From assembly GCF_028890485.2 (NCBI RefSeq), contig NZ_JARCHV010000001.1:1585698-1649697 (forward strand): 64,000 nucleotides of DNA. Direction: 5' to 3'. The position numbers were made by a program, and so were the translations under genes. Below, piece after piece: positions 20,636 through 54,008 of the stretch. The notes beneath the pieces were generated by a model. That model was not told the origin of the DNA, did no database searches, and saw only the letters and a program-made list of their open reading frames with translations. Numbering within the stretch: position 1 is the first letter of the stretch; each line of letters opens with the position of its first letter. This stretch comes from Planococcus sp. SK3692 (GTDB taxonomy: Bacteria > Bacillota > Bacilli > Bacillales_A > Planococcaceae).

Positions 20636-20932
20636 TCATACTTGCATTCTCATCACTTCTTGGTACGCTTCCACCACTTTATTGCGCACTTGCATCGTCA
20701 TTTGAAGCGACAGGCTCGCTTTTTGCGAGGCGATCATCACTTCATGGACATCTTTCACTTCGCCCGTCAACAATTGGTCTGTCTTTTTATCGGATACGTT
20801 TTGTGCTGCGCTCACTTCTTTTAGTGCATTCTTGAAGACATCGCCGAACCCCGTCGCTTGCGGCTCCGGCTGCATTTTTTCCAGAAATTGATTTTGCAGA
20901 AACGGTGTCTGCAGCTGTGTAATTTTCTCCAT
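20636..20932 (-). CDS. fliE: Flagellar hook-basal body protein FliE
   Basis: A 98-residue protein with the FliE pattern FGDVFKNALKEVSAAQ and a C-terminal ASLSLQMTMQVRNKVVEAYQ. The ATG at 20932 follows GAGGAGGGGCAGC. FliE joins the MS ring to the rod. Confidence 0.92.
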   Translation of the reverse strand: MEKITQLQTPFLQNQFLEKMQPEPQATGFGDVFKNALKEVSAAQNVSDKKTDQLLTGEVKDVHEVMIASQKASLSLQMTMQVRNKVVEAYQEVMRMQV

Positions 20933-20957
20933 GCTGCCCCTCCTCAACTAAACTTCG

Positions 20958-21410
20958 TTACTTCCCGATTTCGAGTGCTTTCATGAACATGCTTTTCGAG
21001 GCGTTCATCGCCGTGACGTTCGCTTCATAGGAACGCGTCGCTGACATCAAATCCACCATTTCCTTAATTGGATCCACATTCGACGTGCGCACATACCCCT
21101 CGGCATCGGCATCCGGATGTTCCGGATCGTATGTCACCGGAAAAGGCGTCGCATCTTCCCGGATGGCGCTTGCTTTCACGCCTGCCCCGGCTCCTTTGTT
21201 TTCCATCGCAGCCGTCAATTGTTTGGCAAACGGCGATGCGCCGGCGGTCGACAGTTCCACAGTTTTACGGCGGTACGGCACCCATTCCCCGTTGACCAAT
21301 TCAGCACGGTTTGTGTTGGCATTGGCGATATTCGATGACACGACATCCATCCGCAAGCGGTTGGCGGTCAGGCCGGATGCGCTAATATTCAGACCATTAA
21401 ATAAAGACAT
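20958..21410 (-). CDS. flgC: Flagellar basal-body rod protein FlgC
   Basis: A 150-residue rod protein with the N-terminal rod motif LNISASGLTANRLRMDVVSS and the C-terminal NVDPIKEMVDLMSATRSYEA. It lies between flgB and fliE, with 5 nt to flgB. Confidence 0.94.
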   Translation of the reverse strand: MSLFNGLNISASGLTANRLRMDVVSSNIANANTNRAELVNGEWVPYRRKTVELSTAGASPFAKQLTAAMENKGAGAGVKASAIREDATPFPVTYDPEHPDADAEGYVRTSNVDPIKEMVDLMSATRSYEANVTAMNASKSMFMKALEIGK

Positions 21411-21415
21411 ACGCG

Positions 21416-21808
21416 TTATCTCCCTCCGTTGATGACTGAACTCAAGCTCGAAAACTTGCCGTTGACGCGCTCTGTAACGGCGTTATACCATAATTGGTTT
21501 TTCGCCAGTTCCGCCATTTCAAAATCCATATCGACGTTATTGCCGTTCGGTGTCATTTTCGTATTGTGGTTGACCGTCACTGGTGTTGCCCCCGTCCCAC
21601 TTTGGAATTCCAGGTGGCGAGTATCGGTGCGGTAACTGTTCATCCGCGAGGCGCTTGCTTGTTCCATCGCCTGTTGAAAATTCACTTGCTTGCTTTTGTA
21701 ATTTGCTGTGTCGACATTGGCGATATTGCCGGCATGGACACGCTGTTTTAATGTCGAAGTCGACAAAGCCTGCTCCATTTTTTGAATGCTTGATGGAAAG
21801 ATATTCAT
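21416..21808 (-). CDS. flgB: Flagellar basal-body rod protein FlgB, first gene of the operon
   Basis: A 130-residue rod protein (MNIFPSSIQKMEQALSTSTL, then HAGNIANVDTANYK). The ATG at 21808 follows GGGGGAG. It is the first gene of the long operon; the cyclic-dinucleotide riboswitch and its likely terminator lie between about 21820 and 21985 upstream. In B. subtilis codY precedes flgB; here flhO/flhP lie divergently instead. Confidence 0.93.
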   Translation of the reverse strand: MNIFPSSIQKMEQALSTSTLKQRVHAGNIANVDTANYKSKQVNFQQAMEQASASRMNSYRTDTRHLEFQSGTGATPVTVNHNTKMTPNGNNVDMDFEMAELAKNQLWYNAVTERVNGKFSSLSSVINGGR

Positions 21809-21824
21809 CTTTTTTCTCCCCCGT

Positions 21825-21882
21825 CCCCAAATTTGCCCAAATAAAAAACCCACTTTGAAAAAGGCGGATTTGAGTCAAATCT
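21825..21882 (-). promoter_or_regulatory. Probable expression platform of the flgB riboswitch
   Basis: Directly after the aptamer, the minus strand has a GATTTGACTCAAATC inverted repeat. An imperfect hairpin (CCGCCTTT paired with AAAGTGGG) follows and runs into six T residues. The last could be an intrinsic terminator and the first an alternative pairing. Which state is bound to ligand cannot be decided from sequence. Confidence 0.5.
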
Positions 21883-21883
21883 A

Positions 21884-21985
21884 CCATCTTTCGGTAACCC
21901 GGCGATCTTGTGTCTTAGACAGTTAGACCCGTGGTTTTGCGTCCTTAACTTTCGTATAAGTTTGCTATTTTCGTCATGATATGGG
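21884..21985 (-). ncRNA. GEMM-I cyclic-dinucleotide riboswitch in the flgB leader
   Basis: On the minus strand the conserved GEMM-I blocks appear in order: AATAGCAAAC, a stem capped by a GAAA tetraloop (CTTATAC-GAAA-GTTAAG), GGACGCAAAACCACGGGTCT, and GCCGGGTTACCGA. CCAT/ATGG ends can close P1. Class I aptamers bind cyclic di-GMP. Aligned to the Vibrio Vc2 aptamer, the base at position 20 (G in c-di-GMP binders) falls on A in AUAGCAAAC, while the CC corresponding to C92 is kept. Position-20 A is the change seen in cyclic AMP-GMP-responsive members. Class assignment is firm; ligand is an inference. Confidence 0.85.
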
Positions 21986-22191
21986 TATATTTTTCTTTAA
22001 ACTCGTCTTTTAGAATCATTTTGAGCCGTTACTACCTCGGTATAGTATCATGCTTTTTTTATTTTGGCTATTTTATTTTATAAAAAAATTCTACTATTTT
22101 TTCCATTTAATCTACGGTTTTCTGTTAAAATGAAGACACCACAAAGAATATATAGTCCAAAAGACTAAAAAAGGGAAGGTGACTAGGTAAT

Positions 22192-22995
22192 ATGTTTCGA
22201 GGATTGTACACGGCTACCTCAGGAATGATGTCTCAAAATAGAAATCAACAAATATTGACAAATAATCTATCAAATTCCAATACTCCGGGATTCAAGACAG
22301 ATGAAGCAGCGATTCGCTCGTTTCCACAGCAATTAATCAAAGCGCAGAATGCCAATCAGCCTGCGCCGATTGGCCGACTTTCCACTGGCGTTTACGTCCA
22401 GGAAGCGATTCCTTCCTTTTCGCAAGGGCCGATACGCGAAACGGGGAATGCGACCGATTTCGCTTTGGTCAATGACAATTTGCCGCTGGATGCGGAAACC
22501 GGCGAACGCGGCACTTTGTTGTTCGCAGTAGAAACTGAAGATGGCGATGTCCGCTATACACGTAACGGCCAATTCACGGTCGACGCGGAAGGATTCCTTT
22601 CAACCAGCTTCGGCCAGCGTGTGCTCGGTGACAACCTTCAGCCGATTCAAGTCGGCGATGGCGAGTTTTCTGTCCAAGCGAACGGCGAAATCACACGTTC
22701 CGATGGCGCAGGTGCCGGAAGCGTCTGGATCGGCGCTTCTGATGAACCGGAACAATTGATCAAGCAAGGACATAATTTGCTTGCCTGGGCAGGAGACGAT
22801 GCTGACGCCCCGGCACTGGCCGGTGACGCCGAGCGTTTTGTCAAACAAGGCTTCATTGAACAATCGAATGTCGATTTGACCCGCACAATGACCGACATGA
22901 TGACCGCTTACCGGGGATTTGAATCCAACCAAAAAGTAATCCAGGCCTATGACCGCAGCATGGAAAAAGCGGTCAACGAAATCGGCCGGGTCTGA
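22192..22995 (+). CDS. flhO: Flagellar rod protein FlhO (FlgF/FlgG family)
   Basis: A 267-residue rod-family protein: MFRGLYTATSGMMSQNRNQQ and NNLSNSNTPGFKTDE at the N-terminus, and the C-terminal helix NVDLTRTMTDMMTAYRGFES. B. subtilis FlhO and FlhP form the distal rod. It is transcribed divergently from flgB; the ribosome site is AAGGGAAGGTG. I see no convincing SigD box upstream. Confidence 0.9.
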   Translation: MFRGLYTATSGMMSQNRNQQILTNNLSNSNTPGFKTDEAAIRSFPQQLIKAQNANQPAPIGRLSTGVYVQEAIPSFSQGPIRETGNATDFALVNDNLPLDAETGERGTLLFAVETEDGDVRYTRNGQFTVDAEGFLSTSFGQRVLGDNLQPIQVGDGEFSVQANGEITRSDGAGAGSVWIGASDEPEQLIKQGHNLLAWAGDDADAPALAGDAERFVKQGFIEQSNVDLTRTMTDMMTAYRGFESNQKVIQAYDRSMEKAVNEIGRV

Positions 22996-33670: not shown

Positions 33671-35301
33671 TTAACGTAGCAATTGAAGAACTTGCTGTGG
33701 TGCTTGGTTGGCTTGCTTTGCCACTATGTCTTTCGATCATAGAATAGACTATATCTTCACCCTCACTTTCGAGGGGCTGGGCACTTCGAACGGCGCTTAC
33801 CGCCCTACGGATTTCATCGCCATAGCTTTCGCCTTAGACGGTCTATCCTAGTCGTTGAACCTTCCCCAGAGTTTCCTCACAGGAGCTTGGCTGCTGATTA
33901 TCCATTGGTGCATCCCCGTCATTTTCAGACCGTCACGCCGACCGTTTCCAGTTACGTTGTGGTTGATGGGGCTTTAGGAGGTTCCAGCAATTCACCCAGT
34001 TATACTCTAACCCGTTACCCGGTTAGACGCCCTAAAATCAATTATCTCAACAGTTGCAATACTGATTGAGTCATTTGATTGGATTGAGCCAGCATTGCTT
34101 GTGATGCTTGTGCAAGAATCGAGTTCTTTGTTTGTTCCATCATTTCTTTCGCCATCGTGCGAACATTTACTTTCATAAATGACTAGACTATATCTTCACC
34201 CTCTAAACTAGTAGGGGCCGGGCACTTCGGATCTTTCAGTGCTGATGGACACTGTGTCACCTACGGATTTCATCACCATAGCTCTCACCTTAGATGGTTT
34301 ATCCTAGTCGTTGAACCTTCTCCACTCTTTCGAGACAGGAGCTTGGCTGCTGATTGCCCAATCTTTTATTTTCTCTAGCCATCACGTTTGCCGTTTCCAG
34401 CTGCGTTGTGGCAATAAAAGCTATCAGGGTTTTCCAGCAATTCACCCGGTCGTAATCTCTGGCTGTTACCGGCCAGGACGACTGTACCTCTGCTCGCTTA
34501 CGCGGCTTCGGCATAATCAACGTCGCGGATACGTGATTCCGCAGCTGTAATGTTTTCAGAAGATGTGTTCAAGTTGTTGATTGTGTGTTCGAGACGGTTC
34601 TGAGTTGACCCCAATTTTGAACGCTCTGTCGATACTGAAGCAATTGCCGTATCTAATTTACCTAAAGCCGTCTGCGCATTGGCTTTACTTGTCAAATCGC
34701 CAATAGCAGCCGTGTCTGCAGCCGCTTGAGCAGTTGCGTCTGCCGCTGCCGCTGCCACCGGATCTGCATCAGTAGAATGCGTGATCCCTGTTCCACCCAT
34801 TAAAGTATTAGCTGTTTTATCGGAAAAAGTATATGAGATTGTTTGACCAACATTGGCACCTATTTGGAAATCTACCCCAGCAGTTTCACCACTCCATAGT
34901 TTTTGCCTATTGAACTCTGTGTCCACAGCAATTCGGGTAATTTCTTTAGCTAGCGCTTTGTATTCAGTATCGAGCGCTGTGCGATCTTCTGCAACATTGG
35001 TATCACTTGAGGCTTGTACAGACAACTCACGCATGCGTTGTAAGATGTCATGCGTTTCGTTTAACGCACCTTCTGCAGTTTGCAACATTGAAATACCATC
35101 CTGTGCATTTCGCGACCCTTGTTCTAGTCCACGAATCTGGCCACGCATTTTTTCAGAGATTGAAAGTCCTGCTGCATCGTCTTTCGCGCTGTTGATGCGA
35201 AGTCCTGAAGACAATTTCTCCATGTTATTCATTTGAGCGCTTTGAGCTGAGCCCATTTGGCGGTGCGTGTTAAGTGCTGCGATATTGTGATTGATAATCA
35301 T
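33671..35301 (-). CDS. hag: Flagellin gene B, interrupted by two group I introns
   Basis: Exon 1 (34516-35301) encodes 262 residues from MIINHNIAALNTHRQMG to AAESRIRDVD. After intron 1 (34156-34515), exon 2 begins MAKEMMEQTKNSIL. If the second intron (33716-34090) is retained, exon 2 runs to the stop at 34042 and ends QSNQMTQSVLQLLR. If it is spliced, exon 3 (33671-33715) supplies QANQAPQQVLQLLR. Both forms give 299 residues with a canonical flagellin C-terminus. Without intron 1 removal the product stops at DVDYAEAA and lacks the C-terminal D0 helix. The middle has an Ala-rich insert absent from flagellin A. I see no SigD box directly upstream, so it may be co-transcribed with flagellin A. 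Confidence 0.85.
33716..34090 (-). ncRNA. Second group I intron in flagellin B, carrying an alternative C-terminal exon
   Basis: Group I core elements are present on the minus strand: P (GGGTGAATTGCTGGAA), Q (AATCAGCAGCCAAGC), R (GGTTCAACGACTAGGATAG) and S (GAAGATATAGTCT), plus a P2-type hairpin and a P9 hairpin with a GAAA loop. It is related to, but clearly different from, the other two introns. The boundaries (after GCT, before CAA; last intron base G) are set by restoring a canonical flagellin end. P1 pairing at this site is weak, so the 5' site is less sure. Its first 45 nt encode a second flagellin tail and stop. No endonuclease gene. Confidence 0.75.
34156..34515 (-). ncRNA. Group I intron in flagellin B (site DVD|MAKEMM)
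   Basis: A 360-nt self-splicing group I intron with P, Q, R and S elements (R: GGTTCAACGACTAGGATAA; S: GAAGATATAGTCT) and a P9 stem CATTTA/TAAATG. The 5' exon end GACGTTGAT can pair with the internal guide GTaCAGtCGTC (bulges in lower case), placing a U-G pair at the splice site, and the intron ends in G. Removal joins DVD to MAKEMM, the expected flagellin sequence. It appears identical to the intron at 35515-35874. It has no endonuclease gene. Confidence 0.88.
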
Positions 35302-35400: not shown

Positions 35401-36573
35401 TTAGCGTAGCAATTGAAGAACTTGCTGCGGCGCTTGATTCGCCTGTGCCAACATTGCTTGTGATGCTTGTGCAAGAATCGAGTTCTTTGTTTGTTCCATC
35501 ATTTCTTTCGCCATCGTGCGAACATTTACTTTCATAAATGACTAGACTATATCTTCACCCTCTAAACTAGTAGGGGCCGGGCACTTCGGATCTTTCAGTG
35601 CTGATGGACACTGTGTCACCTACGGATTTCATCACCATAGCTCTCACCTTAGATGGTTTATCCTAGTCGTTGAACCTTCTCCACTCTTTCGAGACAGGAG
35701 CTTGGCTGCTGATTGCCCAATCTTTTATTTTCTCTAGCCATCACGTTTGCCGTTTCCAGCTGCGTTGTGGCAATAAAAGCTATCAGGGTTTTCCAGCAAT
35801 TCACCCGGTCGTAATCTCTGGCTGTTACCGGCCAGGACGACTGTACCTCTGCTCGCTTACGCGGCTTCGGCATAATCAACGTCGCGGATACGTGATTCCG
35901 CAGCTGTAATGTTTTCAGAAGATGTGTTCAAGTTGTTGATTGTGTGTTCGAGACGGTTCTGAGTCGACCCTAGCTTCGAACGCTCCGTCGATACTGTAGC
36001 AATAGCTGTATCAATCGCTCCAAGTGCAGTCTGTGAACTAGTCTTAGTCAGCAAATCACCAACTCCACCTGTTAATGCAGCAGCATCTTTATCAGAGAAT
36101 GTATAGGAAATCGTTTGACCAACATTGGCACCTATTTGAAAATCTACCGTAGTAGTAGTACCGTCCCATAATTTTTGCTTATTAAATTCTGTGTGATCAG
36201 AAATTCTTGTAATCTCAGCTGCCAACGCTTGGTATTCAGTGTCGAGTGCTGTACGGTCTTCTGCAACGTTGGTATCACTTGAGGCTTGTACAGACAACTC
36301 ACGCATGCGTTGTAAGATGTCATGTGTTTCGTTTAACGCACCTTCTGCAGTTTGCAACATTGAAATACCATCCTGTGCATTTCGCGACCCTTGTTCTAGT
36401 CCACGAATCTGGCCACGCATTTTTTCAGAGATTGAAAGTCCTGCTGCATCGTCTTTTGCGCTGTTGATGCGAAGTCCTGAAGATAATTTCTCCATGTTGT
36501 TCATTTGTGCGCTCTGAGCTGTGCCCATTTGGCGGTGCGTGTTAAGTGCTGCGATATTGTGATTGATAATCAT
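35401..36573 (-). CDS. hag: Flagellin gene A, interrupted by one group I intron
   Basis: Exon 1 (35875-36573) encodes 233 residues, MIINHNIAALNTHRQMG to AAESRIRDVD, with the conserved flagellin N-terminal D0/D1 region and a short variable part. Exon 2 (35401-35514) encodes MAKEMMEQTKNSIL to QANQAPQQVLQLLR. Splicing of the 360-nt intron gives a 270-residue flagellin. Unspliced RNA would stop five codons into the intron (DVDYAEAA). A SigD promoter, a CsrA hairpin and a CACGGAGG ribosome site lie upstream, and fliW-csrA are just beyond, so this is probably the main flagellin. Confidence 0.9.
35515..35874 (-). ncRNA. Group I intron in flagellin A (site DVD|MAKEMM)
   Basis: A 360-nt group I intron at the same site as the first intron of flagellin B and, by eye, identical to it base for base, while the variable parts of the two genes differ. 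Core elements P, Q, R and S and the guide pairing are as described there. The P1 loop contains an in-frame TAA, so translation of unspliced RNA stops early. Confidence 0.88.
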
Positions 36574-53761: not shown

Positions 53762-53864
53762 AAAAAAATCCTCCCAAATCTAAATTTGGAAGGATTAGCC
53801 AGTACATTTTGGATACGCCGAATAAACAGCGACACCTTATGGATGAAATGGGCAGACTAATCCT
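53762..53864 (-). promoter_or_regulatory. Transcription attenuator in the vmlR leader
   Basis: On the minus strand AATCCTTCCAAAT and ATTTGGGAGGATT form a strong terminator followed by seven T. The 8-nt stretch CTAATCCT that begins it is exactly complementary to AGGATTAG about 60 nt upstream (53857-53864), so an antiterminator can replace it. This matches drug-induced attenuation known for ABC-F genes. Confidence 0.82.
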
Positions 53865-53913
53865 ATGTTTTCGTCTTCGAAAAATAACTATTTCAAATGA
53901 CTAAAAATATAGG

Positions 53914-53949
53914 TTAGTTGCGCATTGTCCACCCATCAACTCGTTTCAT
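53914..53949 (-). CDS. Possible vmlR leader peptide (11 codons)
   Basis: A short frame, MKRVDGWTMRN, lies upstream of the antiterminator arm in the vmlR leader. A ribosome stalled on it by antibiotic could favour antitermination. Its ribosome site is weak, so translation is not certain. Confidence 0.4.
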   Translation of the reverse strand: MKRVDGWTMRN

Positions 53950-54008
53950 TTCAGAATTGAGTTGATTTTATCATGCGAAAACTTTGCTTGCAACCGGAGC
54001 AGCCGGAA

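Follow-up and report, generated by a model that had tools for sequence, protein, structure and literature searches.

A full-length c-di-GMP-I (GEMM-I) aptamer with an A at the specificity position 20 (Vc2 numbering) was found directly before the flgB basal-body operon of Planococcus sp. SK3692, in a leader where an antiterminator and a terminator are mutually exclusive. Judging from modelled folds and from characterised relatives, this RNA is probably a transcriptional OFF riboswitch of the flgB operon that still responds to c-di-GMP, less selectively and at a shifted threshold. The window analysed here is a stretch of 64,000 nucleotides, to which all coordinates refer unless a contig is named. 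Position 20 is a known specificity base, and in this locus it differs between orthologues of a single RNA whose target gene and place have stayed constant. Sister species keep G20, the same genome holds a G20 paralogue and the expression platform has shifted alongside, so the locus provides a natural experiment in which a ligand change can be set against a threshold change through the same base.

The aptamer lies at 21976-21890 on the minus strand and matched RF01051 over model positions 1-87 of 87 with 75.3 bits (E = 5.8e-13 for the whole window; Rfam gathering score 35 bits), so it is not a chance match, and the 37-leader alignment A1 and its pair counts also support it. A GEMM-I RNA before a flagellar basal-body operon had been proposed in a preliminary description of this DNA, which quoted several short strings; all of them were present on the minus strand in the order stated, and its range of 21820-21985 takes in the aptamer, the antiterminator and the terminator. 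From the aptamer end to the flgB start at 21808 there are 81 nt. The first gene under the switch is flgB (21416-21808; Flg_bb_rod, E = 2.3e-4), followed on the same minus strand by flgC (20958-21410; Flg_bbr_C and Flg_bb_rod), fliE (20636-20947; FliE, E = 2.7e-31), fliF (YscJ_FliF), fliG (FliG) and others, as assigned from Pfam and the ORF list. Two divergent rod/hook-type genes, at 22192 and 23011, lie upstream of the aptamer. Scanning 21700-22260 for the sigma-70 consensus yielded a single weak match, on the plus strand (shuffle mean 1.4), from which no promoter is claimed, and the terminator described below was absent from the output of a consensus terminator scan of the same segment.

The helices and the conserved pocket of the class were recognised in the aptamer. 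The P1 5' strand AUCAU (21976-21980, minus) pairs with 21887-21883, and across the 34 distinct leaders 87.6% of the cells of this helix are paired; P2, P3 with its GAAA loop and the pocket bases G21-C46, C22-G45, A47 and C92 are present, the pocket columns being invariant in 12 of 12 A20 leaders. In the covariance alignment to RF01051, the A at 21966 (minus) falls on model position 11, where the consensus letter is G, a consensus that is not a condition of membership in this Rfam family. We take model position 11 to be Vc2 G20 from a count on the Vc2 sequence. This count was anchored on C46-A49 as given in the available text of PMC7288161, and the available text of PMC9262584 equates G11 of the C. 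difficile switch Cd1 with Vc2 G20. The C92 equivalent, the Watson-Crick reader of a ligand guanine, was placed at 21894 (minus) by alignment A1. The hand alignment in the preliminary description, which had read A at 20 and C at 92, was thus borne out, with A and not G on position 20. The same model placed G at position 11 in a sister species (L026) and in the second GEMM-I copy of the same genome (L002), and A in a leader of another genus (L313).

Alignment A1 comprises 37 flgB leaders (34 distinct rows), and every row has G or A at position 20, with A20 in 12 and G20 in 25. C stands at the C92 position in every one of the 12 A20 leaders and in 22 of the 25 G20 leaders, and G14, G21, C22, G45, C46, A47, A48, C92 and C93 are all canonical in 12/12 A20 leaders. 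The window RNA therefore shows the combination of A20 with C92 by which GEMM-Ib RNAs are recognised in sequence. Three G20 leaders (L022, L038 and L055) have U in place of C92; both specificity positions vary in the orthologous flgB switch, and none of the 37 leaders has the two changes together. The 3.54-Mb genome holds two GEMM-I copies, and the second (C5:41814-41905, 67 bits) has G20. This second switch precedes a 298-aa protein (575-1471 on the minus strand of L002), which gave no Pfam match at E ≤ 0.001, and a GGEEF-type GGDEF gene lies near it at C5:39432-39893.

The expression platform was examined by folding and by pair counts. The P1 3' strand AUGGU (21883-21887, minus) is common to P1 and to an antiterminator hairpin (21857-21892, minus; segment -11.0 kcal/mol) that is exclusive both with P1 and with the intrinsic terminator. 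The latter (21843-21871, minus; segment -6.5 kcal/mol) consists of a weak stem, 91.6% of whose cells are paired across the aligned leaders, and then a U tract, and its 5' arm is also taken up by the antiterminator. The minimum-energy fold of the ligand-free window leader holds the antiterminator (-35.8 kcal/mol, z -2.86). Over the 34 distinct leaders, 92.7% of cells in the aptamer and terminator structure were paired, vs 33-47% in slid controls and a mean of 87.8% in shuffles, and 68 cells were changed on both sides vs 25.8 in shuffles. Two covariation measures were weak: 13 pairs had a both-side change vs 9.7 in shuffles, a number reached by 6 of 500 shuffles, and 44 further pair types were counted, a number reached by 37 of 500.

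Among the five A20 leaders folded, enforcing P1 and the aptamer helices raised the predicted terminator probability to 0.91-0.97 in L020, L054 and L063 (0.03-0.25 before), to 0.76 in L313 (0.51 before) and to 0.19 in the window leader (0.00 before). The rise in the window leader is small because a 5' ACCCAU pairs with the terminator 3' arm. In the seven G20 leaders folded, the terminator was dominant both without P1 (0.65-1.0) and with it (0.97-1.0), and switching there would therefore have to be kinetic. This resembles the case of Cd1, whose antiterminator is described as only transiently stable in the available text of PMC9262584. Accessibility of the Shine-Dalgarno sequence in the free state varied in A20 and G20 leaders alike, with no clear pattern between them.

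Taken as modelled, the leader is laid out as expected of a switch that turns transcription OFF, as at C. difficile flgB. Cd1 (Cdi-1-3) is the nearest parallel among the switches compared, since RNA class, target operon and, as predicted here, antiterminator/terminator OFF logic are alike in the parts of PMC9262584 and PMC6200980 that describe it, and the C. difficile class I switches tested in the latter were, in its available text, uniformly 'off'. Cd1 differs in having G at its position-20 equivalent (G11), whereas the window RNA has A and a platform tilted toward antitermination. The G20 flgB switches of other Planococcus and of three further genera (g5, g12 and g17) are alike in orthologous place, aptamer and platform, and differ by G20.

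The mechanism that we infer, as regards the ligand, its affinity, the sense of the regulation in vivo and the adaptive reason, would run as follows. Without ligand, AUGGU would pair into the antiterminator and hold the terminator 5' arm, and transcription would continue. With ligand bound, P1 would be stabilised, the terminator arm would be freed and transcription would stop before flgB. In this clade the change from G20 to A may have lowered c-di-GMP affinity or selectivity and may have added cGAMP binding in vitro, and together with the weakened terminator it could have reset the switch to 'flagella on unless c-di-GMP is high'.

An association between A20 and the platform was not expected. 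Measured on fixed segments chosen on the window leader, the antiterminator minus terminator energy ranged from -4.5 to +0.7 kcal/mol (median -4.5) in the 12 A20 leaders, nine of which were below zero and three at +0.1 to +0.7, and from +1.6 to +8.4 kcal/mol (median +5.4) in the 25 G20 leaders, so the two ranges did not overlap; 6 distinct platforms lie behind the A20 values and 22 behind the G20 values. The terminator segment was stabler than the antiterminator segment in 25/25 G20 leaders. The shift was seen in both A20 lineages, with L313 at -3.6 and its G20 relatives L310-L312 and L314 at +4.6 to +6.9, and it was not seen in the G20 leaders with U92, which lay at +1.6 to +7.3. Because about two independent events underlie the association and the window leader served to define the segments, we regard it as a lead.

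We then looked at how A20 is distributed. RF01051 matched in 42 of the 46 genus genomes, with 80 matches, and flgB was found in 35 of them. A GEMM-I RNA precedes flgB in 31 of the 46 (11 A20 and 20 G20 in alignment A1), where position 20 lies 129-168 nt from the script-called start codon. Among the 49 genus copies elsewhere, 48 have G (44 by script and L008, L044, L047 and L049 by eye); the other, the weakest match (L080 in G024, 46.2 bits), was read by eye as having A there and lacking the following G too. Within the genus, the A20 species group in a single clade with support 100/100. Across the family, RF01051 matched in 152 of 261 genomes and flgB was found in 236 of 261. Nineteen further flgB regions of the family were inspected: six carry the switch, with G20 in five (G062, G118, G120, G121 and G172) and A20 in G122; G117 has a decayed copy with the terminator kept, G185 ran off its contig, and in the other eleven the core pattern found nothing. 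Five flgB leaders (L304, L305, L306, L307 and L309), from four genus genomes that have flgB without an RF01051 match and from one genome of another genus, keep the terminator and have lost the aptamer core, which reads as repeated decay of one switch.

On a tree of FlgB and FlgC (47 rows), A20 requires two changes, and none of the 200 bootstrap trees explains it with one. Since parsimony asks for two changes and G122 belongs to another genus, A20 before flgB probably arose twice, one of these times in one species of that other genus. An AU test with all A20 rows as a single clade did not reject this topology (p = 0.178), and horizontal transfer may have played a part. Among 398 genomes drawn from the phylum, 30 have a strict A20 pattern and 164 the corresponding G20 pattern. 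A looser A20 pattern hit 26 of 261 order genomes, several of these matches being not GEMM-I by their flanks, and all counts given here use the stricter one. In a public genome set there are at least 118 A20 stretches; among the 80 matches listed, most are named as Bacillota and some as Chloroflexi and others, and related loci in Planococcus, such as that of P. maritimus MKU009 (L173), are among the matches listed. The first ORF downstream of an A20 core was FlgB in 4 of 109 among the matches listed. From this phylum spread and the 4/109, A20 is neither a Geobacter speciality nor usually flagellar.

The preliminary description had gone further and suggested that the operon may respond to cGAMP or to both dinucleotides. 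This functional reading is partly supported: by analogy to published variants, binding of both c-di-GMP and cGAMP by the A20 RNA in vitro is plausible, and the part that makes cGAMP the physiological signal found no support in the genome. Hypr cGAMP synthases have their marker residue changed to Ser, according to the available text of PMC7288161. The search for Hypr GGDEF or DncV-like enzymes that the preliminary description proposed found no Ser among the 13 GGDEF matches of the genome, which have Asp in 10 and Asn in L089 (intact) and L092 (degenerate), with L093 lacking the marker motif, and the SMODS profile gave no match at E ≤ 1; among the types searched (GGDEF and SMODS), a cGAMP synthase was thus not found beside the A20 RNA. 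The second A20 lineage (G122) has 12 GGDEF matches, with Asp in eight, Asn in one, one degenerate and two fragments short of the residue, and no Ser was seen in the 10 that are readable. The available text of PMC9262584 reports from NMR that the G11A change in Cd1 neither abolished nor enhanced c-di-GMP binding. This retained binding, together with the lack of a Hypr Ser in the readable GGDEF matches of both A20 lineages and of a SMODS match in the genome of the window, favours c-di-GMP, with relaxed selectivity, as the most likely ligand in the cell. The intact Asn protein L089 (C4:359995-360483) has Asn at the guanine-reading marker position, in GHQSGN. As an explanation of A20 it was rejected, because an orthologue occurs in 46/46 genus genomes and Asn was found in 30/30 fetched copies, in A20 and G20 species alike.

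A cGAMP-selective RNA of the GEMM-Ib type, which would put the flagellar operon under an unrecognised cGAMP pathway in Planococcus, would agree with A20 beside C92, with the probable double origin of A20 at flgB and with the conservation of the A20 aptamer. Published work lends it substance: the available text of PMC6456294 reports that A20G turns the Geobacter Gmet_0970 RNA from cGAMP-selective to c-di-GMP-selective, the Geobacter A20 RNAs prefer cGAMP over c-di-GMP about 1600-fold (Gm0970) and about 1200-fold (the pgcA switch) in the parts of PMC6456294 and PMC8835794 that give these values, and the natural A variant of Desulfobacca gained c-AMP-GMP affinity, perhaps with a slight c-di-GMP loss, as described in PMC9481103. 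We nevertheless consider this reading unlikely. The GGDEF matches speak against it in both A20 lineages, as does the SMODS search in the genome of the window, and the Asn-type GGDEF is present in all 46 genus genomes regardless of A20 or G20. Moreover, the pair beside the pocket is G21-C46 here and C15-G40 in the solved cGAMP riboswitch, the cGAMP riboswitches described in the available sources are ON switches whereas the window RNA looks OFF, and the genome retains its second GEMM-I copy with G20. The comparison with the Geobacter GEMM-Ib switches (Gmet_0970, GSU1761), as they appear in the available text of PMC6456294, PMC8835794 and PMC6274999, is similarly divided. A20, the C92 equivalent and the overall fold are alike; their targets are genes for cytochromes, pili and polysaccharide, and the transcripts of these genes drop on deletion of the cGAMP synthase GacA. 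Unlike them, the window RNA stands at flagellar genes, is predicted to be OFF, keeps G21-C46 and comes from a genome in which no Hypr marker was found. The Desulfobacca acetoxidans cluster-3 aptamer (PMC9481103, available text) is likewise a natural A variant whose genome also holds G variants; it stands in tandem with AdoCbl riboswitches, is predicted to be ON and has been probed in-line.

A relaxation toward loss, in which A20 and a weak terminator are an escape from c-di-GMP repression and the switch is now near-ineffective, is also improbable in our judgement. It would account for the decayed aptamers with kept terminators before flgB in four genus genomes and one other genus, for C92 changed to U in 3 of 25 G20 leaders, and for terminators weakened relative to antiterminators in both A20 lineages, the window leader reaching a terminator probability of 0.19 even with P1 enforced. 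However, across the 11 Planococcus A20 species the variable columns number 14 of 98 in the aptamer and 8 of 40 in the platform vs 86 of 130 flgB third positions, and the twelve pocket positions tallied are invariant across the A20 leaders. The A20 aptamer thus looks like a sequence under purifying selection, and its low variation relative to flgB third positions argues against simple decay; in addition, the decayed leaders have lost the aptamer, not the terminator.

A broader claim, that the Bacillota A20 GEMM-I RNAs, with the flgB switch as their clearest example, are a distinct sensor type for cGAMP or for both dinucleotides, derived repeatedly from G20 with a re-tuned platform, appears doubtful as well. 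If it were true, these bacteria would have an unrecognised cGAMP-producing route, with flagellar assembly under it. The flgB case also cautions that A20 RNAs should not be named 'cGAMP riboswitches' from their sequence alone. That A20 and G20 bind c-di-GMP equally here and that the platforms differ by an accident of lineage is very improbable: the unchanged binding of Cd1 G11A, the two A20 lineages in the set and the single clade that the AU test did not reject would agree with it, but A20 and G20 platforms are separated in energy without overlap and the published A20/G20 swap alters selectivity.

The literature found on c-di-GMP riboswitches at flgB or in Bacillus is mainly C. difficile work. 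B. methanolicus has four c-di-GMP riboswitches, none of them at flgB according to the available text of the source. A search mostly outside subscription journals found no report on a c-di-GMP riboswitch of Planococcus, and by title and abstract nothing relevant for Sporosarcina.

Other RNAs were also recognised in the window. Three group I introns lie on the minus strand at 33724-34050, 34164-34487 and 35523-35846, with Rfam scores of 72.7, 90.6 and 90.6 bits. Two of them are directly 3' of two flagellin ORFs that stand in tandem, at 34498-35301 and 35857-36573, within a duplicated unit, and both of these ORFs break off after ...RDVDYAEAA; the third intron lies just downstream of the first of the two flagellin-adjoining introns. 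A match to Rfam ncr1575, a Bacillus sRNA, was found at 53762-53957 on the minus strand with 107.6 bits.
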